NCBI RefSeq assembly: GCF_001010945.1
Contig: NZ_LBHB01000002.1
Span: forward strand, 1-64,000
Direction of reading: 5' to 3'
Length of the DNA stretch: 64,000 bases
DNA from: Aurantiacibacter luteus
GTDB lineage: Bacteria > Pseudomonadota > Alphaproteobacteria > Sphingomonadales > Sphingomonadaceae
Shown: positions 43,198 through 54,491 of the stretch, piece after piece
How the letters are laid out: each line of letters starts with the position of its first letter
Numbering within the stretch: position 1 is the stretch's first letter
The notes under the pieces: model-generated
Told to the model about the DNA's origin: nothing
The model's input: only the letters and a program-made list of their open reading frames with translations
The model's database searches: none
Program-made: the position numbers and the translations under genes

Positions 43198-43986
43198 ATG
43201 ACCGCCGATCCCAATCGCCCGCCCCGCGTGCTGGTCATTGCCGGGTCCGACAGCTCGGGCGGCGCGGGGATCCAGGCGGACATCAAGACTGTCACCATGC
43301 TCGGCGGCTATGCCATGACCGCCATCACCGCCGTCACCGCGCAGAACACGCGCGGGGTGCGCGCGGTAGAGACGCTCTCGCCCGATTTCGTCGCCGCGCA
43401 GATCGACGGCTGCCTGGAAGACATCGGCGCGGACGCGGTCAAGGTGGGGATGCTGGGCAGCGCCGACATCGCCGAGGTGGTGGCGGACCGGCTGGAGGAC
43501 CTGCCCTGCCCCATCGTCTTCGACCCCGTCATGGTCGCCACCAGCGGCAGCGTGCTGGCCGACCCGGCTACCGTCGAGGTGTTCGACTGGCTGATGGAGC
43601 TGGCCGCGCTCACCACCCCTAACGTGCCCGAACTCGCCGCGCTCGGCGGCCCGGAGGGCATGAAGGCCAGAAACGACGGTGGCGGCGTCGCCTACCTCGC
43701 CAAGGGCGGCGATGCCGAGGGGCCGATGGTTGAGGACCGCCTCGTGCGCCCCGGCATGGAGGACGTGGTCTGGAGCGAGGCGCGCATCGTCACCCGGCAC
43801 ACGCACGGCACGGGCTGCACCTTGTCGAGCGCGATCGCCACCCACCTCGGACGCGGGCTGCGGCTGGAGGATGCCGTCGCGCTAGGCCGCCGCTTCGTGC
43901 GCGAGGCGATGATGCAGGCGCCGGGCTTCGGGCTCGGCAACGGCCCGCTGGGGCATCAGGCGGTGAGCCAGGCCGGCCAAAACTAA
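43198..43986 (+). CDS. thiD: Hydroxymethylpyrimidine/phosphomethylpyrimidine kinase
   Basis: The protein has 262 residues, the usual size. It starts with the ribokinase-fold segment VLVIAGSDSSGGAGIQADIKT and contains the alkaline loop MTAITAVTAQNTRGV, VFDPVMVATSGS and the anion-hole HTHGTGCTLSSAIAT with its catalytic GTGC cysteine. It phosphorylates HMP and HMP-P in thiamine synthesis or salvage. Its 3' end overlaps the convergent marR gene by 4 bases. Confidence 0.94.
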   Translation: MTADPNRPPRVLVIAGSDSSGGAGIQADIKTVTMLGGYAMTAITAVTAQNTRGVRAVETLSPDFVAAQIDGCLEDIGADAVKVGMLGSADIAEVVADRLEDLPCPIVFDPVMVATSGSVLADPATVEVFDWLMELAALTTPNVPELAALGGPEGMKARNDGGGVAYLAKGGDAEGPMVEDRLVRPGMEDVVWSEARIVTRHTHGTGCTLSSAIATHLGRGLRLEDAVALGRRFVREAMMQAPGFGLGNGPLGHQAVSQAGQN

Positions 43987-44441
43987 CCCAGGAATTTGGC
44001 CAGCAACCTACGCAGTTCCTCGACCTCGTCGCTTTCCAGCTTTTCGCGCAGCCGCTTTTCCGCCTCCGCCGTCTGCATTTCAAAGGCGGCAACCAGGTCT
44101 TCTCCCGCAGGAGTAACGAACAGACCGCGACTACGGCGGTCCCCTGGCACTACGCGCCGCTGCATGCAGCCACGCTCCTCCCAGAAATCGATCGCGAGCG
44201 TCGCGGCTGGGCGCGACAGGCGCAGCGCCTCGCCGATGCGGACCTGCGAGGCGCCGGGGTTGGCGGCCACCAGCGTCAGCACCGACATGCGCTGCGATGT
44301 AAGCGCCTTGTCCGGCATTTCCCCCGCGAGGTGCGACAGGTTCATCACGCTGGCAAGGCGCAGCAGAAACCCGGTGCGTCGGGACAGGAAGCTGTAGTCG
44401 AGCTCGGCGTCACTTTCGTCCGCCGGTATAATCGGCGCCAT
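43983..44441 (-). CDS. MarR family transcriptional regulator
   Basis: The protein has 152 residues from ATG 44441, with GGGGAGAG upstream. The winged helix region is RMSVLTLVAANPGASQVRIGEALRLSRPAATLAIDFWEERG, and the wing follows as RRVVPGDRRSRGLFVTPAGED. The C-terminal helix (AEAEKRLREKLESDEVEELRRLL) is for dimerisation. It is divergent from a TonB-dependent receptor, with a palindrome between them, so it probably controls that receptor and itself in response to a small ligand. Confidence 0.88.
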   Translation of the reverse strand: MAPIIPADESDAELDYSFLSRRTGFLLRLASVMNLSHLAGEMPDKALTSQRMSVLTLVAANPGASQVRIGEALRLSRPAATLAIDFWEERGCMQRRVVPGDRRSRGLFVTPAGEDLVAAFEMQTAEAEKRLREKLESDEVEELRRLLAKFLG

Positions 44442-44523
44442 GGTCACGCTCTCCCCGTGTGACTTTTCCGACACGATAAACAGGCCGCCACTATGCGGCA
44501 AGCGACGCGATATTGTCGGCATA

Positions 44524-44540
44524 TGTTATCGATGATAACA
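44524..44540. promoter_or_regulatory. Palindromic candidate MarR operator
   Basis: TGTTATC (44524-44530) and GATAACA (44534-44540) are exact complements around GAT. The site lies between the divergent marR start (44441) and the receptor start (44586), in locally AT-rich DNA. MarR dimers usually bind such 15-20 bp palindromes. Confidence 0.65.
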
Positions 44541-44585
44541 AATTTCCAAGACCGCGTACGATCGGTCGTTTTTGGGAGAACAGTC

Positions 44586-47000
44586 ATGCACATCTTCGGC
44601 CTGTCCGCTTTCCGTTGCGTCGTCCTCTCCGGCACGGCTCTCGCGGCGCTTACTTCGGCTCCGCCCGCCGCCGCGCAGGTGAACCCTGCCGACACCGGCG
44701 CATCGGCAGAGGAAGCCCGCCAGAACGAGCAGGCGGGAGACGTCATCCTTGTCACCGCGCGGCGTCGCGAAGAATCGCTGCAGGACACCCCTATCGCCAT
44801 CTCCGCCTTCAGCGCCGAAACGCTGGAGGATCGGCAAATCGTGCAGACATCCGACCTCGAGCGGATCACGCCCAGCCTGCAGTTCAAGCCTGCCGGTCAG
44901 CTGTCCGGCAACAGCGCCTCGTCCGTCGTTTTCATCCGCGGCATCGGCCAGCTCGATCCCACGGCGGCAGTCGATCCGGGCGTCGGCATCTACATCGACG
45001 AGGTCTATGTCGGTCGCGCTGCGGGTGGCACAATCGAGTTCGGCGACATTGCCAGCGTCGAAGTGCTGCGCGGACCGCAAGGCACGCTGTTCGGCCGCAA
45101 CACCATCGGCGGCGCAATTCTGGTCCGCACCCGCGAACCGGAATTCGGGGAATTTTCCGGCCGGGCGCGGATGCGCTTTGGCCAGTACGACCTGTTCGAA
45201 GGCTTCGCCGCATTGAACGTGCCGCTTGGCGACACGCTGGCGGCCCGCATTTCGGGCGGAATTCGCGAGCGACAGGGCTACGTCATCCGCGAGTTCGACA
45301 ATCGCGACCTTGGCAACGAGAGCGTGCGTTCGGGCAATGCTGCCCTGCGCTGGGAGCCCTCGCCCGCCTTCGAGGTGAACCTGCGTGCCGATTACACCCG
45401 GCGCGACGAGAACGGCGCGCCGTTCGTTTTTGCCGGCATAAACGAGCGGGCCCCCGTGCCTGCCATCGTCAGCGTGGCGGCGGGCTGTCCCGGCGCGACC
45501 ATTCCCTTCGCCCCGCTCGCCCCCGGCAATCCGCGCTTCGGCGCCCCCAACGTGCCCTTGATCGACGACGCGCGCTGCGCCAACGATTTCCAGGCACGTG
45601 GCAACTTCGTCAACGGCGGGACCGCGCCCGTACTGAGCGAATCCGAGGTCTGGGGCGTATCGGGCACCGCCACCTACGAACTGTCGGACGCTTTCACCGT
45701 GAAGAGCATCACCGCCTATCGCTCCACGGAATCGCGCGGCATCCGCGATGCCGACAACACGCCGTTCGAGATCCTGACTACCGATGTCGGCTCGCAGTCC
45801 GACCAGTTCAGCCAGGAGCTGCAACTGCAGTACAACTCCGATCGTGTGAGCGCGATCATCGGCGGATACTACTTCGACGAGGACACGACCGAGCGGGCCA
45901 CGGTGTTCCTGGCGTTTCCGCCCTCGCCGCCCGTCATCGGCTCGGTATTGAACGGCGGGCCGGGAAGCCGCGACCTGCAATTTTCCGATCTCGAGACACG
46001 CTCGCTTGCAGCTTTCGGCGAAGTTTCGTTCGAAGTGCTCGAGGGCCTCGAGCTGACCGGCGGCCTGCGCTACACGGAAGATCGCAAGACCTATGCCGGC
46101 ACGGTGTTCAACCTCTTTCCCTCGACGCTGCCCGACCCCGATCCGCTGCCGGTATTGGCCATTCCCGAAGGCGGCCCCCTGTTTATCTACAGCCGCCCGT
46201 TCGAGGATACCTTCACCGCTCTCACCGGCTCTGCCAGCGCGGCCTACACGTTCACCGATTGGCTCAACGCCTACGTCTCCTACGCGCGCAGCTTCAAGTC
46301 CGGAGGATTCAACACCCGCTACAACGCACCGCCTGCTGGCTTCGTCCCGGTGCCTTTCGACGAGGAGAGCGTAAACAGCTACGAAGTCGGAGCGAAGATG
46401 GATTTCGGCGATCTGCGCCTGAACCTCGCCGCCTTCCAGGCCAATTACACCGACATCCAGCTGGTCTTCCGCCAGGGCCCTGTGCCGCTGCTGTTCAACG
46501 CCGGCGAGGCACGGATCCGCGGGTTCGAGGCGGAGGCAACCTACAATCCCTACGGCAGCGGTCTGCGGATCGATGCCGGGCTCAGCGTGCTCGACGACGA
46601 GATCCGCACGATCACGCCTGTCCCCGGCACCACGGCCACCGTGGCGCCAGGCGACGACCTGCCTCTGACCCCGTCGTTCCAGGGTAATATCGCCATCGGT
46701 TACGAGATCGACGTATCTCCCCGAGTCACCGTGACCCCGCGCGTGGACGGGAGTTATACATCCAGCCTCACCTTCATCACCGGCAGCGTGCCGGAGATTG
46801 AGCAGGACGGGTATTTCGTGGGCAACGCTTCGATCGAGGTGGAAATCGACGATACCTATCGCATCCAGGCAGGTGTCATCAACGCGCTGGACGAGGAATA
46901 CCTGATTCAGGGCAACGCCTCACTCGGCACGCTCGGCTACGCCGAGAAGATCTTCGCCCGCCCCCGCAACTGGTACGTGCAGGTCTCGACCGAATTTTAG
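44586..47000 (+). CDS. TonB-dependent outer-membrane receptor
   Basis: The protein has 804 residues from ATG 44586 (GGGAG upstream), with a signal peptide ending at PAAAQ. The plug shows VILVTARRREESLQDTPIAIS, FIRGIGQLDPTAAVDPGVG, IYIDEVYVGRAAGG and VEVLRGPQGTLFGRNTIGGAI. The barrel ends in the family-typical FARPRNWYVQVSTEF. No adjacent periplasmic or ABC partner is present. The divergent MarR regulator suggests induction by an aromatic or amphipathic ligand rather than iron control; this is inference. Confidence 0.92.
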   Translation: MHIFGLSAFRCVVLSGTALAALTSAPPAAAQVNPADTGASAEEARQNEQAGDVILVTARRREESLQDTPIAISAFSAETLEDRQIVQTSDLERITPSLQFKPAGQLSGNSASSVVFIRGIGQLDPTAAVDPGVGIYIDEVYVGRAAGGTIEFGDIASVEVLRGPQGTLFGRNTIGGAILVRTREPEFGEFSGRARMRFGQYDLFEGFAALNVPLGDTLAARISGGIRERQGYVIREFDNRDLGNESVRSGNAALRWEPSPAFEVNLRADYTRRDENGAPFVFAGINERAPVPAIVSVAAGCPGATIPFAPLAPGNPRFGAPNVPLIDDARCANDFQARGNFVNGGTAPVLSESEVWGVSGTATYELSDAFTVKSITAYRSTESRGIRDADNTPFEILTTDVGSQSDQFSQELQLQYNSDRVSAIIGGYYFDEDTTERATVFLAFPPSPPVIGSVLNGGPGSRDLQFSDLETRSLAAFGEVSFEVLEGLELTGGLRYTEDRKTYAGTVFNLFPSTLPDPDPLPVLAIPEGGPLFIYSRPFEDTFTALTGSASAAYTFTDWLNAYVSYARSFKSGGFNTRYNAPPAGFVPVPFDEESVNSYEVGAKMDFGDLRLNLAAFQANYTDIQLVFRQGPVPLLFNAGEARIRGFEAEATYNPYGSGLRIDAGLSVLDDEIRTITPVPGTTATVAPGDDLPLTPSFQGNIAIGYEIDVSPRVTVTPRVDGSYTSSLTFITGSVPEIEQDGYFVGNASIEVEIDDTYRIQAGVINALDEEYLIQGNASLGTLGYAEKIFARPRNWYVQVSTEF

Positions 47001-48591: not shown

Positions 48592-49572
48592 CTAGGCTGA
48601 ACAACTCGCCCCGCCGAGCACGCAGAAGCGCGCGCAGTGCGGGTGGTTGAGCATGACCGGGCGGCTCGCCTCGGCAACGGTCGCGCCGAGATCGAACTGC
48701 GGATCGTAGGGCAGCAGCGTGCAGGCGACGACACGCGCGGCGGGCTCGCCCTTGCGGTGGACGACCATTCGGCTCGAGGCGCACATGATGTCGTCCGGGG
48801 ACTTGCCGAGGATGCCCCAGCACGCGGTGGTGATCTCGGGCACGTCGGCGCTCGCGTCCATTTCCGGGAAGAGCACCAGCTGCGCGGGATCGGCGGCGTC
48901 GATGGCGATACCCTCGGCGGCGAACAACATGGCGTAGGCATTGCGGGCCAGTGCCTCGCTTTCCCCGCCCAGCCTGCGCCCGGCGGCGGCGAGCGAGAAG
49001 CCGTTGGCGCTGAGCCAGCGCAGCCCGTCCAGCATGGGCGCCCAGCTTCCCGGGCCGCGCTCCTCCTCGTGCACGTGCTGGGTGTGGTGATCGATGGAGA
49101 CGCGGATCGTCAGCCGGTCGCCGTAAGCCTGGCGCAGCCGCAACAGTTCGGCTTCGTGGCGGCGCAGCGGCTTCATGGCGTTGGAGAGGACGAGCACCTC
49201 GTGCCCACGCGACAGCGCGTCCTCGATCATCGCCAGGATGTGCGGATTCATGAACGGCTCGCCGCCGGTGAACCCGATCTCGCGGACCCCTTGTGCCTCG
49301 ATCTCGTCGAGGAAGCGCGTCACCTCGGCAGCGGTCAGGTAGATCAGCGCATCGTTGGTCGGACTGCTCTCGATGTAGCAGTTGGCGCAGGCGAGATTGC
49401 ACAGCGTGCCGGTAGCGAACCACAGCGTGTCGAGGTGCGTCAGCGCCACGCTCGCGCGCTCCGAGCCGTCGGCGGTAACCAGCGGATCGGCGAATTTTTC
49501 GCGCGGCAGGGCCGTGGCATCGACCGCGAAGGGCGAGGGGCCGGTGGGGGCGTTCCTGCTGCGGCTTGCCAT
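48592..49572 (-). CDS. Radical SAM protein with Cys-rich C-terminus, in an arsenosugar-type cluster
   Basis: The protein has 326 residues from ATG 49572, overlapping the upstream oxidoreductase stop (ATGA). The radical SAM 4Fe-4S motif is C58-x3-C62-x2-C65 in TLCNLACANCYIESSP, and the SAM-binding GGEP is at 103-106. Six further cysteines (251, 264, 284, 313, 317, 324) fill the last third, suggesting a SPASM-like auxiliary cluster. It also has conserved-looking SIDHHTQHVHEEERG and LVLFPEMD. It does not show the N-terminal pattern of ArsS that I recall (GKLCNQACKHCHVDA), so it may be a different enzyme replacing ArsS, or one with another role. Context links it to arsenic. Confidence 0.82.
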   Translation of the reverse strand: MASRSRNAPTGPSPFAVDATALPREKFADPLVTADGSERASVALTHLDTLWFATGTLCNLACANCYIESSPTNDALIYLTAAEVTRFLDEIEAQGVREIGFTGGEPFMNPHILAMIEDALSRGHEVLVLSNAMKPLRRHEAELLRLRQAYGDRLTIRVSIDHHTQHVHEEERGPGSWAPMLDGLRWLSANGFSLAAAGRRLGGESEALARNAYAMLFAAEGIAIDAADPAQLVLFPEMDASADVPEITTACWGILGKSPDDIMCASSRMVVHRKGEPAARVVACTLLPYDPQFDLGATVAEASRPVMLNHPHCARFCVLGGASCSA

Positions 49573-50987
49573 CAGAACGCCCGCCGCATCTTGGCCACCA
49601 GCCGCGCCCAGCGCTTGGGCCATGCGCCGAAGACCATCGGCTCCCACGCGGCAAAGGCGGCGGCCTTCACGATTTCGGCGCGGGTGGGATAGGCGATGAC
49701 CGCGCCGCCGAGCGCAAAGGTCGATGTCTTGCCGGTGATGGCCTGCCACAGCGGCAGCAGCAGTTCGCCCGCTTGCTCTCCGCAGACACTGGCGCCGACC
49801 ATCTTCTTGCCCTTCAGCATCAACTTCAGATGGCCGGCGGGGCGACCTTCCGCGACCGCACGATCGTTGTGGTCGAAGTGCTCGGTGACGACGACTAGCG
49901 CCTCACCGTATTTTGCCCGCGCCTGCTGTTCGGTCAGCCCCACCTGCCCCACCTCGGGCGAAGTATACGTGCACCACGGCAGCGCGGCGTAATCCGCCTT
50001 GGTCGGCAGGCCGAGCGCGATCTCCATCACCACGTTCGACCCCTCGTAGCCCGAGACGTGCGTCAGGCGCGGGCCTTCGTTGCAGTCGCCCACGGCGTAG
50101 ATGTGCTTGACGCTGGTGCGGCGGCGGGCGTCGACGGCGATGCCGTTCTTCCCCAGCTTCACGCCGGTTTTTTCCAGCCCGTAGCCTTCGGTACGCGCCT
50201 TGCGGCCCGTCGCCACCAGCAGGTGCGAGCAGGCGATTGTCTCTCCGCCGTCGGTTGTCACCTCGATGGCCCCCGCCTCGCCCGAGACGCTGGCGGCCTT
50301 GCCCTTCACGAAGCGCACGCCCTCGTCCTTCATCGCCTCCACCAGCAGGTCCACGCTGTCGCGGTCGTCACGGGCGAGCAGGTCGTCGGGTTCGATCAGC
50401 GTGACCCGGCTGCCGAGGCGGCGAAAGGCCTGCGCCATCTCCATGCCAATGTTGCCGCCGCCGAGCACCGCGAGATGGGCGGGCAGTTCGTCCAGCTCGA
50501 ACAGGTTCTCGTTGGTGAGGTAGGGCACGCCGTCCAGCCCCTCGATCGGCGGCACGGCGGGGCTGGAGCCGGTGGCGATAACCACGCGCGGCGCGCTCAG
50601 CGTGCGCCCCGCCACCTCGACCGTCTTCGGCCCGGTGAATTTTGCCCAGTCGCGGAAAACCTCGCAACCCATCCCCTCGAATCGCTCCTGCGAATCGTGC
50701 GGCGCGATGGCGGCAATGGCACCCTGGACGTGGGCGCGCACGCCCGCCCAGTCGACCTGCGGAGCCTCCAGCTTGACCCCCATGCAGCTGGCCTCTCTCC
50801 CCTCGGCTGCCCGCGCCGCCGCGGCGATCAGCGCCTTCGACGGCACGCAGCCGTTGTTGAGGCACTCGCCGCCCATTTCGCCGGCCTCGATCAGCGCGAC
50901 CTTCAGCCCGAACAGCGCGCAGCCGCCCGCCGCGGTCAGCCCCGCAGCGCCGCCGCCGATCACGATAACGTCATGCGTGTAATCCAT
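49572..50987 (-). CDS. FAD-dependent pyridine nucleotide-disulfide oxidoreductase (mercuric-reductase-like)
   Basis: The protein has 471 residues. The FAD motif GGGAAG (11-16) precedes the redox disulfide C42-LNNG-C47 in GGECLNNGCVPSK. The second Rossmann motif is LGGGNIGMEMAQAFRRLG, and IYAVGDCNEGPRLTHVSGYEG is the FAD-contacting segment. The C-terminal active-site His-x4-Glu of lipoamide dehydrogenase and glutathione reductase is missing; the region reads VIAYPTRAEIVKAAA, with tyrosine, which resembles mercuric reductase. There is no N-terminal metal-binding domain and no C-terminal cysteine pair as in MerA. It starts the operon with the radical SAM gene and is divergent from arsM, so it may reduce an arsenical, a thiol cofactor or the radical SAM partner. 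Confidence 0.85.
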   Translation of the reverse strand: MDYTHDVIVIGGGAAGLTAAGGCALFGLKVALIEAGEMGGECLNNGCVPSKALIAAAARAAEGREASCMGVKLEAPQVDWAGVRAHVQGAIAAIAPHDSQERFEGMGCEVFRDWAKFTGPKTVEVAGRTLSAPRVVIATGSSPAVPPIEGLDGVPYLTNENLFELDELPAHLAVLGGGNIGMEMAQAFRRLGSRVTLIEPDDLLARDDRDSVDLLVEAMKDEGVRFVKGKAASVSGEAGAIEVTTDGGETIACSHLLVATGRKARTEGYGLEKTGVKLGKNGIAVDARRRTSVKHIYAVGDCNEGPRLTHVSGYEGSNVVMEIALGLPTKADYAALPWCTYTSPEVGQVGLTEQQARAKYGEALVVVTEHFDHNDRAVAEGRPAGHLKLMLKGKKMVGASVCGEQAGELLLPLWQAITGKTSTFALGGAVIAYPTRAEIVKAAAFAAWEPMVFGAWPKRWARLVAKMRRAF

Positions 50988-51062
50988 TGCCCATGGGGCC
51001 TAGCCCATTGCGGGCGGCGGGCGAAGCGCTATCGGGTTGGGCGACACCAAGGGATGCAGCGC
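50988..51062. promoter_or_regulatory. Divergent promoter spacer of the arsenic cluster
   Basis: These 75 bases separate the oxidoreductase (minus) and arsM (plus) starts, so both promoters must lie here or inside the genes. AGGGAT lies close before the arsM start. I found no clear inverted repeat resembling an ArsR site. Confidence 0.4.
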
Positions 51063-52109
51063 ATGAACCTCCAGAACTCGCAGGACTATTACGGCAAGGT
51101 GCTCTCGGGCTCGCAGGATTTGCGGACCGATGCCTGCTGCACCTTCGAACGGCCATCGGACCGGATCCTCGCCGCGCTGAAGAACGTCCACCCTGAGGTA
51201 AAGGCGCGCTACTACGGCTGCGGGCTGGTGGTGCCGCAGGCGCTGGAGGGGTGCCACGTGCTCGATCTGGGTTCGGGCAGCGGGCAGGACGCCTACTTGC
51301 TCGCACAGCTCGTCGGACCTGAGGGCAGCGTCACCGGGGTCGACGCCACGCCCGAGCTGCTCGCCGTCGCGCGCGAGCACCAGGGCTGGCACGCCGAGCG
51401 TTTCGGCTATGCCAACACCCGCTTCGTGGAAGGCGACATCGAGAAGCTGGGCGAGCTGGACCTTGCGCCCGAAAGCTTCGACGTCATCGTCTCCAACTGC
51501 GTCATCAACCTCGTCGCCGACAAGGCCGCGGTCTTTGCCGCCGCGCACCGTCTGCTGAAGCCGGGCGGTGAGCTCTATTTCTCCGACGTCTATGCCGACC
51601 GCCGCGTGCCGGAGGCGCTGCTGGCGGACCCGGTGCTGCACGGCGAGTGCCTGTCGGGCGCGCTTTACTGGGGCGATTTCGACCGGCTGGCCAAGGCCGC
51701 GGGCTTTGCCGACCCGCGCCTCGTCACCGACCGGCCGATGGGCATCAACGATGCCGAAATCGCGGCAAAGCTGGACGGCATCAATTTCGTCTCGGCCACC
51801 TGGCGCCTGTTCAAGCTCGACGGGCTGGAGCCGCAGTGCGAGGACTATGGCCAGGCGGTCGTCTACCATGGCGGCATTGCGGGCGAGGAGCGCGTGTTCA
51901 TGCTCGACGCGCACCACGCGATCGAGGCGGGGCGGGTGTTCCCGATCTGCGGCAATTCGTGGCGGATGCTAGCTGATACGCGCTTTGCCCCGCACTTCGA
52001 CTTCATCGGCGACTTCTCGCGGCACTACGGCGTATTTCCCGGATGCGGGACGGCCATGCCGTTCGGTCAGGGCGAGCAGACGGCAGCGACCGGCGCGGCC
52101 TGTTGCTGA
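51063..52109 (+). CDS. arsM: Arsenite S-adenosylmethionine methyltransferase
   Basis: The protein has 348 residues. The SAM motif is LDLGSGSGQDAYLLAQLVG, followed by VTGVDATPEL. The As(III)-binding cysteines can be placed: C25/C26 (DACC), C53 (YYGCGLV), C146 (SNCVINL) and C196 (GECLSGA). The 50-residue gap between the last two equals that between C174 and C224 of the characterised algal enzyme. LKPGGELYFSDVYADRRVP and the C-terminal CGNSWRML region are also ArsM-like. The chain ends in AACC, an extra vicinal cysteine pair that could bind arsenic. It methylates As(III) stepwise, giving dimethylarsenicals, the presumed precursor of arsenosugars. Confidence 0.9.
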   Translation: MNLQNSQDYYGKVLSGSQDLRTDACCTFERPSDRILAALKNVHPEVKARYYGCGLVVPQALEGCHVLDLGSGSGQDAYLLAQLVGPEGSVTGVDATPELLAVAREHQGWHAERFGYANTRFVEGDIEKLGELDLAPESFDVIVSNCVINLVADKAAVFAAAHRLLKPGGELYFSDVYADRRVPEALLADPVLHGECLSGALYWGDFDRLAKAAGFADPRLVTDRPMGINDAEIAAKLDGINFVSATWRLFKLDGLEPQCEDYGQAVVYHGGIAGEERVFMLDAHHAIEAGRVFPICGNSWRMLADTRFAPHFDFIGDFSRHYGVFPGCGTAMPFGQGEQTAATGAACC

Positions 52110-53089
52110 GGGTCCTCGTTACCGGCGCGGCCGGGCTGATCGGGGGCGAGGTCTGCGCCCGGCTGGCGGCGCGCGGCCACGCGGTGACCGCCATGGTCCG
52201 CCGCAATCCCGAAGTTCGCGGCAACGATGGGGCATTGGTCGATGGCCTGCGCGTGGTGCGGGGCGATGTCACGCTGCCGCTGATGGGCCTCGCGCCGGAG
52301 CCGCAGGACGTGGTGATGCACTGCGCGGCGCATCTGGACTTCGACGCACCGGAGGCGGAGCTTCACGCGGTCAACGTGGCCGGTACGCAGAACGCGCTCG
52401 ATCATGCGCGGGAGGCGGGAGCGGCGTTCCTGCACGTCTCCACCGCATACGTTTGCGGCGACCGCGATGGCCACATCGTCGAAGGCCCTGTGCCTGAGGG
52501 CACGTGCTTCACGAACCGCTACGAGGCGAGCAAGGCGGCGGGCGAGCGGGTGGTCGAGGCGAGCGGCCTGCGCTTCGTGATCGCCCGCCCGTCCATCGTG
52601 CTGGGCGACAGCGCAACCGGGGCGATCCGCGACTTTCCTTCGCTCTGCAACGTGTTCCGCCTGATGGCGCGCGGCAAGGTGACGCGGCTGCCGGTGGCGG
52701 GCGGAGCGACCTTCGACTGCGTGCCCATCGACCATGTCGCCGAAGGGCTGGTGGCGCTGGCGGAAAGGATGGACGAAGCGGCGGCCGGGCATTTCCACCT
52801 CGTCGGGGACGAGCCGATGCCGGTGGCGGAGCTGGCGGCGGGGGTGGCGCGGGTGCCGCACTTTCCCGACCCTGAGATTGTCCCGCCCGAAGGCTACGAA
52901 CCGGAAGGCCCGCTCGCCCAGCGCATGATCGCGACCTTCGGCCCCTACTTCACCCGCTCGCCGCGCTTCGACGACAGCAGGTTTCGCGCCGCGACCGGCC
53001 TCGCCTGTCCGCCGACCGACCGCGCCTGGCTCGACCGGCTGATCGCCTACGGCATCAAGCGCGGGTACCTCCCCTCACCGCCTGCCTAG
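52103..53089 (+). CDS. NAD(P)-dependent epimerase/reductase (extended SDR)
   Basis: The protein has 328 residues if it starts at TTG 52103, which overlaps the arsM stop; ATG 52043 gives a longer form lying within arsM and lacks a ribosome site. The Rossmann motif is VLVTGAAGLIGGEVCARLAARG. The active site is HVSTAYVCGDRDG with the YxxxK in NRYEASKAAGERVV. Related extended SDRs modify sugar nucleotides or reduce acyl-carrier or CoA esters. Coupling to arsM suggests work on a sugar or lipid part of an arsenic compound. Its stop (TAG 53087-53089) overlaps that of the convergent glycosyltransferase in the four bases CTAG. Confidence 0.8.
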   Translation: MLRVLVTGAAGLIGGEVCARLAARGHAVTAMVRRNPEVRGNDGALVDGLRVVRGDVTLPLMGLAPEPQDVVMHCAAHLDFDAPEAELHAVNVAGTQNALDHAREAGAAFLHVSTAYVCGDRDGHIVEGPVPEGTCFTNRYEASKAAGERVVEASGLRFVIARPSIVLGDSATGAIRDFPSLCNVFRLMARGKVTRLPVAGGATFDCVPIDHVAEGLVALAERMDEAAAGHFHLVGDEPMPVAELAAGVARVPHFPDPEIVPPEGYEPEGPLAQRMIATFGPYFTRSPRFDDSRFRAATGLACPPTDRAWLDRLIAYGIKRGYLPSPPA

Positions 53090-53811
53090 CGCACGTCAGG
53101 GTAGTGCTCGTGTAGCCGCTCGCGTGCGCCCATGGCCCAGAGCAGCCCGACCTTGAGATAGATCCAGTTCGCCTTCAGCGCCCCCCATTCGGCGATGCGG
53201 CGGTCCGAAGTCTCGACGGTGCGGGCGAGCAGCTTCACGCGGCCGAAGCGGTTGAGGCGAATGCACAGGTCCGCTTCCTCCATAACCCGTGCCGCCGGGT
53301 CGCAGCCGCCAACGGCGAGGAACTGGTGGCGGCGGAAGAACATCGCGTGATCGCCGAACAGCAGGCGGCAGCCGCGCATGAACAGGTGCGGGCGGAACAG
53401 CAGGGGCGCGTACCAGGTCTTGGCCCAGTTGTGCGCTGTGGTACCCCAGCGGGTCTTCTTCGGCCCACGGATGATCGGGGTGAAGCCTGCGAGCGCAGTC
53501 TTCGGGTCGGCCAAGGTCGTGGCGATCACCGCCACGATGTCGGCCGGCGGCACAGTGTCGGCGTGCAGCACCACCACAAGTTCGCCCCGCGCCGCGGCGA
53601 CCCCGGCGTTAATCTGGCGGCCCCGGCCGCGCTCGGTCTCCACCACGCGCCAGCCCGCAGCCCGTGCGATCGCGACCGAGGCATCCGCGCTGCCGCCGTC
53701 GACCGCCACCACTTCCAGCGGCGCGGGATCGAGCGCCGCCAGATGCGAAACAATCGCGGGGAGCGCCGCCTCCTCGTTGAGCATCGGTACGACGATGGAG
53801 ACTTTGTTCAC
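53086..53811 (-). CDS. TIGR04283-type glycosyltransferase (arsenosugar-associated)
   Basis: The protein has 241 residues. It is a GT2-like glycosyltransferase: VSIVVPMLNEEAALPAIV, the nucleotide-binding VVAVDGGSADAS, ERGRGRQINAGVAAARGELVVVLHADT with an HADT (DxD-like) metal site, and RVMEEADLCIRLNRFGRVKLL. The combination GRGRQINAG and LHADT is characteristic of the family defined as arsenosugar-biosynthesis glycosyltransferase in genome annotation. It overlaps the start region of its operon partner by four bases (53808-53811). It would transfer a glycosyl or ribosyl unit in arsenosugar assembly, though direct biochemical proof for the family is not known to me. Confidence 0.88.
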   Translation of the reverse strand: MNKVSIVVPMLNEEAALPAIVSHLAALDPAPLEVVAVDGGSADASVAIARAAGWRVVETERGRGRQINAGVAAARGELVVVLHADTVPPADIVAVIATTLADPKTALAGFTPIIRGPKKTRWGTTAHNWAKTWYAPLLFRPHLFMRGCRLLFGDHAMFFRRHQFLAVGGCDPAARVMEEADLCIRLNRFGRVKLLARTVETSDRRIAEWGALKANWIYLKVGLLWAMGARERLHEHYPDVR

Positions 53812-54392
53812 CGCGTCAGGTCCGGCCAGCGGGTGAGATCCTCAGGCCGGTCGCAATCGGCGAGCGTTTCGAGCAGCCGGTAGGCCGTGCCCGAGCCGCG
53901 AAGACGCGCCACTGTCTCCGCCAGCACCCGGTCGGTACCCCATGGCATGTCTGCGAACAGCTCCGGCATCGGCTGCCGGAAGCCGAGCAGATAATAGCCG
54001 CCGTCCTCCGCCGGTCCAACGACGACGGGCACCTCGGTCAGCGCCGCGGCCGCGGCTGTCAGGTGATGCGGCCGCAGGTCCGGAATGTCCGCGCCCAGCA
54101 GGATCCCGGGCGCGGGAACGCGGGCCAGCCGCGCACCAAGGTCGCCCTCGCCCTGCGCCGCCAGCGGCACGTCCTCGCCCAGCCATTCGCGAAAGTCCGC
54201 GTGCGGCGCGCCCGTGGTCCACACCGTGACGGCAAGCCCGCTCGCGCGCACCGTTGCCAGCGTGCGCTTGACCAGCCGGCGGTGCAGCATGGCCGCGCCC
54301 TCGGTCCCCAGCGCCGGGATCAGCCGCGTCTTCGCCTCTCCGGCGCGCGGATACTTCGCGAACAGGGCGACGGTGGGCGGGACTGGCGACAC
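53808..54392 (-). CDS. TIGR04282-type glycosyltransferase (arsenosugar-associated)
   Basis: The protein has 194 residues from GTG 54392 (TTG 54398 gives two more). Motifs are VALFAKYPRAGEAKTRLIPALG at the start, QGEGDLGARLARV, ILLGADIPDLRPHHL with the metal-binding aspartates, and VVVGPAEDGGYYLLGFRQP. These are the hallmarks of the DUF2064/TIGR04282 family with a CofC/MobA-like nucleotidyltransferase fold. Such genes travel with TIGR04283 and arsM in arsenosugar clusters. By fold it may activate or transfer a nucleotide-linked group. It is the first gene of this two-gene reverse operon, divergent from the Ppx/GppA gene. Confidence 0.87.
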   Translation of the reverse strand: MSPVPPTVALFAKYPRAGEAKTRLIPALGTEGAAMLHRRLVKRTLATVRASGLAVTVWTTGAPHADFREWLGEDVPLAAQGEGDLGARLARVPAPGILLGADIPDLRPHHLTAAAAALTEVPVVVGPAEDGGYYLLGFRQPMPELFADMPWGTDRVLAETVARLRGSGTAYRLLETLADCDRPEDLTRWPDLTR

Positions 54393-54491
54393 GGACAAAG
54401 GCCTAGCCGCGCGCCAACTTGTGTCAAACGGGCATTGGGTCTACCTTGAGGTCAAGTTCCGCCCGGCACGGGCGGTGAAATCGAAAGTACG

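Follow-up and report, generated by a model that had tools for sequence, protein, structure and literature searches.

The cluster described here lies within a 64,000-nucleotide stretch of Aurantiacibacter luteus DNA (contig NZ_LBHB01000002.1, positions 1 to 64,000; hereafter the window) and brings together an ArsM protein, a radical S-adenosylmethionine (SAM) protein that we call rSAM1, and members of the TIGR04282 and TIGR04283 families, two families also found beside the radical SAM enzyme ArsS. Its six genes form three coupled pairs. On the minus strand, a MerA-like, FAD/NAD-linked disulfide oxidoreductase (49572-50987), assigned by profile scores and carrying a CX4C motif (C42, C47), leads into rSAM1 (48592-49572), which was characterized with NCBIfam and AlphaFold, has a CX3CX2C motif and six C-terminal cysteines, and starts with an ATG that overlaps the TGA of the flavoprotein. 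Divergent from this pair, on the plus strand, are ArsM (51063-52109), assigned as an arsenite methyltransferase by its match to structure 5evj, and an extended short-chain dehydrogenase/reductase (SDR; 52103-53089) of the epimerase/NAD_binding_4 type by Pfam, with a TTG start that falls within the 3' end of arsM. Convergent with the ArsM-SDR pair, again on the minus strand, a CofC-like TIGR04282 protein (GT82; 53808-54398; NCBIfam, AlphaFold and Foldseek) is followed by a TIGR04283-type family 2 glycosyltransferase (GT2), here called GT83 (53086-53811; NCBIfam and Pfam), the two genes sharing a GTGA overlap. A scan for promoters and terminators gave no signal exceeding chance.

All six genes lie where the original prediction had placed them, and the cluster is real and conserved. 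We surveyed it in three draws of genomes: 246 from the same order, 142 from the same class (mostly one genome per family among the listed rows) and 150 from the phylum, the last dominated by a few families. The order sample holds 76 rSAM places, 60 of which were fetched: 53 of the rSAM1 family and seven of a second family, rSAM2, that is 33-39% identical to rSAM1. The full six-gene arrangement recurs in 16 of these 60 loci, and the same arrangement minus arsM in a further 13.

As had been proposed, the radical SAM protein, 326 aa long, is something other than ArsS. Against the ArsS model TIGR04167 it scores 62.3 bits, over residues 46-197 only, and so falls 238 bits short of the cut-off of 300; in a 59-row tree (unrooted, made by a quick method from a distant alignment), 28 ArsS proteins occupy one side of a branch with a Shimodaira-Hasegawa-like likelihood ratio support of 100 and rSAM1 lies opposite, while five rSAM2 proteins likewise form one side of a branch. 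The best NCBIfam match of rSAM1 is to the Rv1681 family NF049973, at 93.1 bits against a cut-off of 380, a score on which membership of that family was rejected; the rSAM1 and rSAM2 proteins scanned all have Rv1681 as best match, at 91-108 bits, with the best stretch in the core domain. Comparison of profiles joins rSAM1 and rSAM2 across 299 columns with a probability of 100. Judged by these comparisons, rSAM1 represents a distinct radical SAM family and a putative non-orthologous counterpart of ArsS.

The cysteines of the two enzymes appear to be largely shared. The CX3CX2C motif (C58, C62, C65) is conserved throughout the rSAM1, rSAM2 and ArsS rows, and both proteins have a cysteine-rich C-terminal end. 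All six C-terminal cysteines are present and show strong conservation (53-54 of 54 rows in family 1 and seven of seven in family 2), but they do not seem to be the extra feature that had been claimed, since five have apparent ArsS counterparts: C264, C284, C313 and C324 align with a cysteine in all 28 ArsS rows, and C317 has an ArsS cysteine one residue off, again in 28 of 28. They were dropped as a distinguishing trait, being mostly common to ArsS in this 28-row alignment; the ArsS profile alignment itself stops short of them. What sets rSAM1 apart from ArsS, besides its position outside the ArsS clade, is C251, with a counterpart in none of the 28 rows, and the column of window H162, where all 28 ArsS rows have a cysteine that rSAM1 lacks.

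The rSAM1 family is widespread in Alphaproteobacteria. Matches were found in 74 of 246 order genomes at E 1e-10 (counting partial matches, rSAM2 and the doubtful G214) and in 41 of 142 class genomes at E 1e-30 (one of them, G496, of the rSAM2 type), and the best 80 of 592 confirmed candidates in a scan of named genomes are largely alphaproteobacterial. In the available portions of the open-licence literature, including PMC8552651, PMC12159101, PMC12608789, PMC8801600, PMC13077682, PMC8787705, PMC11009773 and PMC13188914, we found no description of it.

TIGR04282 is matched at E 1e-10 in 40 of the 41 class genomes with rSAM and in 15 of the 101 others (Fisher 1e-21, a value that ignores relatedness among genomes), and above its curated cut-off in 32 of 41 against nine of 101. 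TIGR04283 matches are common class-wide (110 of 142 genomes at E 1e-10, 46 of 142 over the cut-off), and at stricter thresholds the counts with and without rSAM are 40 of 41 against 16 of 101 at E 1e-30, and 38 of 41 against 11 of 101 at E 1e-46. A single rSAM genome, G422, lacks both TIGR04282 at E 1e-10 and TIGR04283 at E 1e-30. The partners of rSAM are thus the two families found beside ArsS, in keeping with the original prediction. ArsS itself exceeds its cut-off in none of the 246 order genomes, in one of 57 class genomes tested (G403, locus L298, 445.5 bits) and in 72 of the 150 phylum-sample genomes, none of the 72 being listed as belonging to the same class. The exceptional G403 has TIGR04282 and a TIGR04283-like match a few kb from ArsS, and no rSAM match.

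Physical linkage is looser. GT82 or GT83 lies near rSAM in 33 of the 53 order-sample loci of family 1, in 11 of the 57 loci from named genomes outside Sphingomonadales and in four of 40 class loci (one of them rSAM2), and ArsM in 20 of 53, none of 57 and one of 40 (rSAM2), respectively. The window aside, the class sample has 40 rSAM genomes, and the 40 class loci come from 39 of them (all save G480). Absence of neighbours is weak evidence here, because many fetched contigs are short. Outside Sphingomonadales, then, homologues of the radical SAM gene do mostly sit away from their supposed partners, as a refutation of the original prediction would have it, while the genome-wide link to GT82 and GT83 is nearly complete and that to ArsM is weak (13-19 of 41 genomes). 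The rSAM2 genes are more tightly placed, with ArsM, GT82 and GT83 each within 8 kb in six of the seven fetched loci. Gene order is rSAM-GT83-GT82 in L161 and L162 (Reyranella) and L180 (Caulobacter), and GT83-GT82-rSAM in L142 (Rhodospirillales).

Other surroundings of rSAM1 vary. It often stands upstream of genes that we take from the sequence to be O-succinylhomoserine sulfhydrylase-like and apaG-, folE- and trkH-like, as in several of loci L068-L083 and L239-L276, and in Rhodobacteraceae it adjoins zwf-pgl-pgi-like genes. G476 holds two copies (L242, L268), one beside GT82/GT83 and the other near a flavoprotein and a TVP38-type gene. In three loci with no GT genes near, a metallophosphoesterase-type gene lies directly 3' of rSAM1 (L166:10983-11858, L178:10902-11792, L239:9418-10539); the first is Pfam Metallophos_2, the other two were assigned by resemblance, and the enzyme is a possible phosphatase for the rSAM1 product.

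The neighbourhoods of true ArsS resemble the window. Locus L286 reads MTAP-ArsS-TVP38-flavoprotein-GT83-GT82, where MTAP is methylthioadenosine phosphorylase; L287 holds MTAP and the run ArsS-flavoprotein-GT83-GT82-ArsM; and L288 reads ArsS-GT83-GT82. ArsM is near ArsS in nine of 20 loci, eight of which (L278-L285) have a shorter ArsM type; the one scanned, from L278, passes the NF008823 cut-off. The ArsS seed alignment behind these locus surveys and the profile comparisons contained two wrong reading frames. Near rSAM, MTAP occurs in 12 of 53 order family-1 loci, three of the 57 loci from named genomes beyond Sphingomonadales and two of seven rSAM2 loci, and all five MTAPs scanned, beside rSAM1 (L047, L139), rSAM2 (L088) and ArsS (L286, L287), exceed the TIGR01694 cut-off. 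Most parts of the cluster other than the radical SAM enzyme also occur in ArsS clusters.

Of the two TIGR proteins, that of family TIGR04283 scores 177.7 bits, just under its cut-off of 182, with 77 bits for Pfam Glycos_transf_2, and that of family TIGR04282 scores 185.6 bits, above its cut-off of 134. The AlphaFold model of the latter (mean predicted local distance difference test score, pLDDT, 96.5) has as its top Foldseek match 3cgx, titled a putative nucleotide-diphospho-sugar transferase and unassigned in function, followed by MM2497 (a probable nucleotidyltransferase), Rv2983, 3-phospho-D-glycerate guanylyltransferase, KdsB, GlmU and IspD; no glycosyltransferase title appears among the 50 matches listed. 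Within its KTRL motif, K23, R25 and L26 are invariant across 27 sequences, and its predicted fold is that of the CofC and FbiD nucleotidyltransferases, at an identity of only ~20%. The TIGR04282 protein is most likely a nucleotidyltransferase; because the predicted fold is of this type, the model suggests that 'glycosyltransferase' in the family name is wrong and that transfer is the work of the TIGR04283 GT2 enzyme.

The flavoprotein reaches 382 bits against a PRK06370-type model (cut-off 620) and 321.6 bits against MerA TIGR02053 (cut-off 454). Mercuric reductase MerA has a C-terminal vicinal cysteine pair; the flavoprotein has none, its last cysteine being C402 of 471 residues. It had been proposed as a new component of the pathway, a claim that did not hold, because the same kind of protein accompanies true ArsS: a same-profile flavoprotein is near ArsS in six of 20 fetched loci, and the one scanned, from L286, has the same best family as that of the window. 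The SDR (112 bits to Pfam NAD_binding_4, 87 bits to Epimerase, with weak PDB matches only) has been added within Sphingomonadales: 32 of the 53 order-sample loci of family 1 have it near rSAM, but at the score used it is near rSAM in none of the 40 class loci and in none of the 57 named loci from other orders. Its supposed coupling to arsM is borne out by the reading frames of the window, but the SDR persists in the 13 clusters without arsM and so travels with the remaining cluster.

The window ArsM is, by its sequence, a relative of solved arsenite methyltransferases. It matches 5evj with 325 bits, and C25, C53, C146 and C196, which we take to bind arsenic, align with 5evj cysteines; it lies below the curated cut-offs of NF008823 (170.7 of 263 bits), NF040538 (142.3 of 500) and NF038099 (86.4 of 400).

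ArsS adds a 5'-deoxyadenosyl group to trivalent dimethylarsenic, DMAs(III), and we consider it somewhat more probable than otherwise that the cluster encodes a pathway of the arsenosugar type, with rSAM1 taking the place of ArsS. What the sequences show is the gene content, its conservation and co-occurrence, an rSAM1 placed apart from the ArsS clade and a TIGR04282 fold predicted to be nucleotidyltransferase-like; each catalytic step and its substrate is inferred. ArsM would methylate arsenite to DMAs(III), and rSAM1 would then place a 5'-deoxyadenosyl radical on the trivalent arsenic, yielding a 5'-arsenical adenosine. MTAP, presumed to be encoded elsewhere in the genome, would remove adenine by phosphorolysis to give an arseno-sugar 1-phosphate, the CofC-like TIGR04282 nucleotidyltransferase would activate the sugar phosphate or a glyceryl acceptor, and the TIGR04283 GT2 enzyme would link the sugar to its acceptor. 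The flavoprotein would most likely serve as a reductant source that holds either arsenic or a pair of enzyme thiols in the reduced state, and the SDR may be a clade-specific tailoring enzyme; both roles are guesses. The original prediction of an arsenosugar-type cluster with a distinct radical SAM enzyme thus keeps its core, an enzyme other than ArsS with the TIGR partners, and loses the new flavoprotein and the extra cysteines.

A number of observations weigh against this reading. The profile match between rSAM1 and ArsS is limited to 188 core columns (probability 97.8, with the two wrong ArsS rows included), GT82 or GT83 is near true ArsS in just three of the 20 fetched loci, and MTAP is near ArsS in two of these and near rSAM in none of the 40 class loci; nor is there an MTAP within the window, the rest of the genome not having been searched. 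MTAP also splits 5'-deoxyadenosine, which radical SAM enzymes usually release as a by-product, so an MTAP next to such an enzyme could be a housekeeping gene that does no more than recycle the free by-product. TIGR04282 without rSAM is seen in 15 class genomes, 14 of which lack ArsS as well at E 1e-20, so TIGR04282 also exists with neither enzyme; ArsS was rejected as the reason for these 15 genomes, since only G403 has it.

A further difficulty is ArsM, which, unlike in the ArsM and ArsS pathway, is often absent from the rSAM1 gene set. ArsM-like genes occur in 13 of the 41 class rSAM genomes, all of which were covered by the NF008823 test, when the window query is combined with strong or two-segment NF008823 matches, and in 11 of 31 at a completeness of at least 95%; six further genomes have weak single-segment matches of 72-80 bits, which gives the range of 13-19 of 41. 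The window ArsM as query at E 1e-20 finds eight of 41 against three of 101 others, and one of the 13 positives, G474, has a stop within its ArsM match. In the phylum sample, by comparison, an ArsM match at E 1e-15 is present in 54 of the 72 genomes with ArsS and in 11 of the remaining 78, figures obtained at another threshold and sampling. Across the 80 genomes in which NF008823 was run at E 1e-18, 32 match, weak matches included.

Within the family of the window, 21 of 35 loci (window included) have arsM and 14 do not, and its presence and absence on the rSAM tree need six changes, at least three of which are forced by well-supported branches. Because the slot is shared (in the 13 arsM-less loci that hold both SDR and flavoprotein, these two are neighbours by spacing), we favour loss of arsM over repeated gain. 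All 14 tested genomes of this family with rSAM and GT genes and no arsM are without an ArsM match (NF008823, E 1e-18). In them, rSAM remains open, with a median ratio of nonsynonymous to synonymous differences (pN/pS) of 0.29 against 0.35 in the arsM group, and the flavoprotein, GT83 and GT82 have 0.29, 0.30 and 0.34, all of these being uncorrected proportions from non-independent pairs with high synonymous divergence. The rSAM and GT genes are under purifying selection in arsM-less genomes.

Not every rSAM genome without the window type of ArsM is free of the enzyme, and the idea that all such solo rSAM genomes lack it was rejected. When NF008823 was run on 26 of the 31 order-sample rSAM genomes without ArsM at E 1e-40 (all save G078, G092, G111, G113 and G214), a longer ArsM-like methyltransferase was indicated in eight (G023 partial). 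This protein was located at L306:997-2190, L308:988-2193 and L311:1012-2139 and, by two-segment NF008823 match, in 12 further genomes, and rSAM is present in 14 of these 15 (G504 being the exception). In the three located copies the cysteine contexts resemble those of ArsM and the C-terminus is of the CC type; the copies of L306 and L311 are closest to the arsinothricin ArsM model, below its cut-off. ArsM is an optional member of the gene set, a point absent from the original prediction.

These results lend themselves to an alternative in which rSAM1 adenosylates inorganic arsenite or environmental dimethylarsenic (DMA) and ArsM is not required. Arsinothricin synthesis offers a parallel, ArsL using arsenite first and ArsM adding methyl groups later. 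The 14 arsM-less loci, the forced changes on the tree and the selection on the remaining genes all agree with it, as does the ArsL-first order of arsinothricin synthesis given in the available text of PMC8552651. That system resembles the present one in having a CX3CX2C radical SAM enzyme and ArsM in one cluster. It differs in that ArsL is 428 aa in the same partial source against 326 aa for rSAM1 (a contrast drawn without sequence comparison) and in that the constant partners of rSAM1 are TIGR04282 and TIGR04283. Against the alternative, 43 of the 44 order-sample genomes that match ArsM at E 1e-40 match rSAM at E 1e-10 as well (partial matches G181 and G040 included), so that the two are tied when ArsM is present; direct use of arsenite and environmental supply are, moreover, indistinguishable by sequence. 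We regard this alternative as unlikely.

A little less likely again is that the rSAM1-TIGR04282-TIGR04283 set makes an arsenic-free glycoside derived from 5'-deoxyadenosine, arsM having been recruited by some lineages as a detoxification gene. The constant partners of rSAM, GT82 and GT83 rather than ArsM, would fit this, and so would the many rSAM1 genes that lie apart from ArsM and GT genes, near metZ-apaG-like or zwf-pgl-pgi-like housekeeping genes. Yet ArsS, whose published activity on arsenic is cited in the available portions of PMC12159101 and PMC8552651, is accompanied by these partners too, and in L287 by ArsM as well, and rSAM2 keeps its close proximity to ArsM. Taken as a single proposition, that a separate alphaproteobacterial rSAM family turns arsenite or scavenged arsenic directly into an adenosyl-arsenical, with no ArsM in the same cell, or else that the set makes an undescribed arsenic-free glycoside by 5'-deoxyadenosyl chemistry, is less likely than not; the candidates for the natural substrate of rSAM1 are the cell's own DMA, environmental DMA, arsenite and no arsenic at all. 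It is highly improbable that rSAM1 acts as a maturase or epimerase of the SPASM/twitch type with no carbon-arsenic chemistry: the solved folds nearest to its AlphaFold model (pLDDT 93.1) are the peptide-modifying radical SAM enzymes SuiB, SkfB and EpeE together with BlsE, but the template-modelling scores of the first ten matches are merely 0.42-0.57, and the link to GT82 and GT83 would be unexpected for peptide maturation.

Outside the cluster, a long frame at 44493-47000 that by eye resembles a TonB-dependent receptor lies beside a MarR-type regulator (43983-44522) that is Saro_0803-like and below the cut-off.

For the arsenosugar-type reading with rSAM1 in place of ArsS, the gene neighbourhoods suggest an order for the later steps of arsenosugar synthesis, namely MTAP, nucleotidyltransferase and GT2; in the available portions of the open-licence literature consulted, we found no description of the steps after ArsM and ArsS. 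The neighbourhoods also suggest that in Alphaproteobacteria another radical SAM family replaces ArsS, and surveys that count arsS would therefore miss these bacteria. The gene sets without arsM point either to arsenosugar-type chemistry on imported or unmethylated arsenic, or to an 'arsenosugar' label that is too narrow for TIGR04282 and TIGR04283. If rSAM1 does build an adenosyl-arsenical without an ArsM in the same cell, a large share of the families in Alphaproteobacteria would have an arsenosugar-type route from rSAM1 through MTAP and the nucleotidyltransferase to GT2, uncoupled from arsenic methylation.

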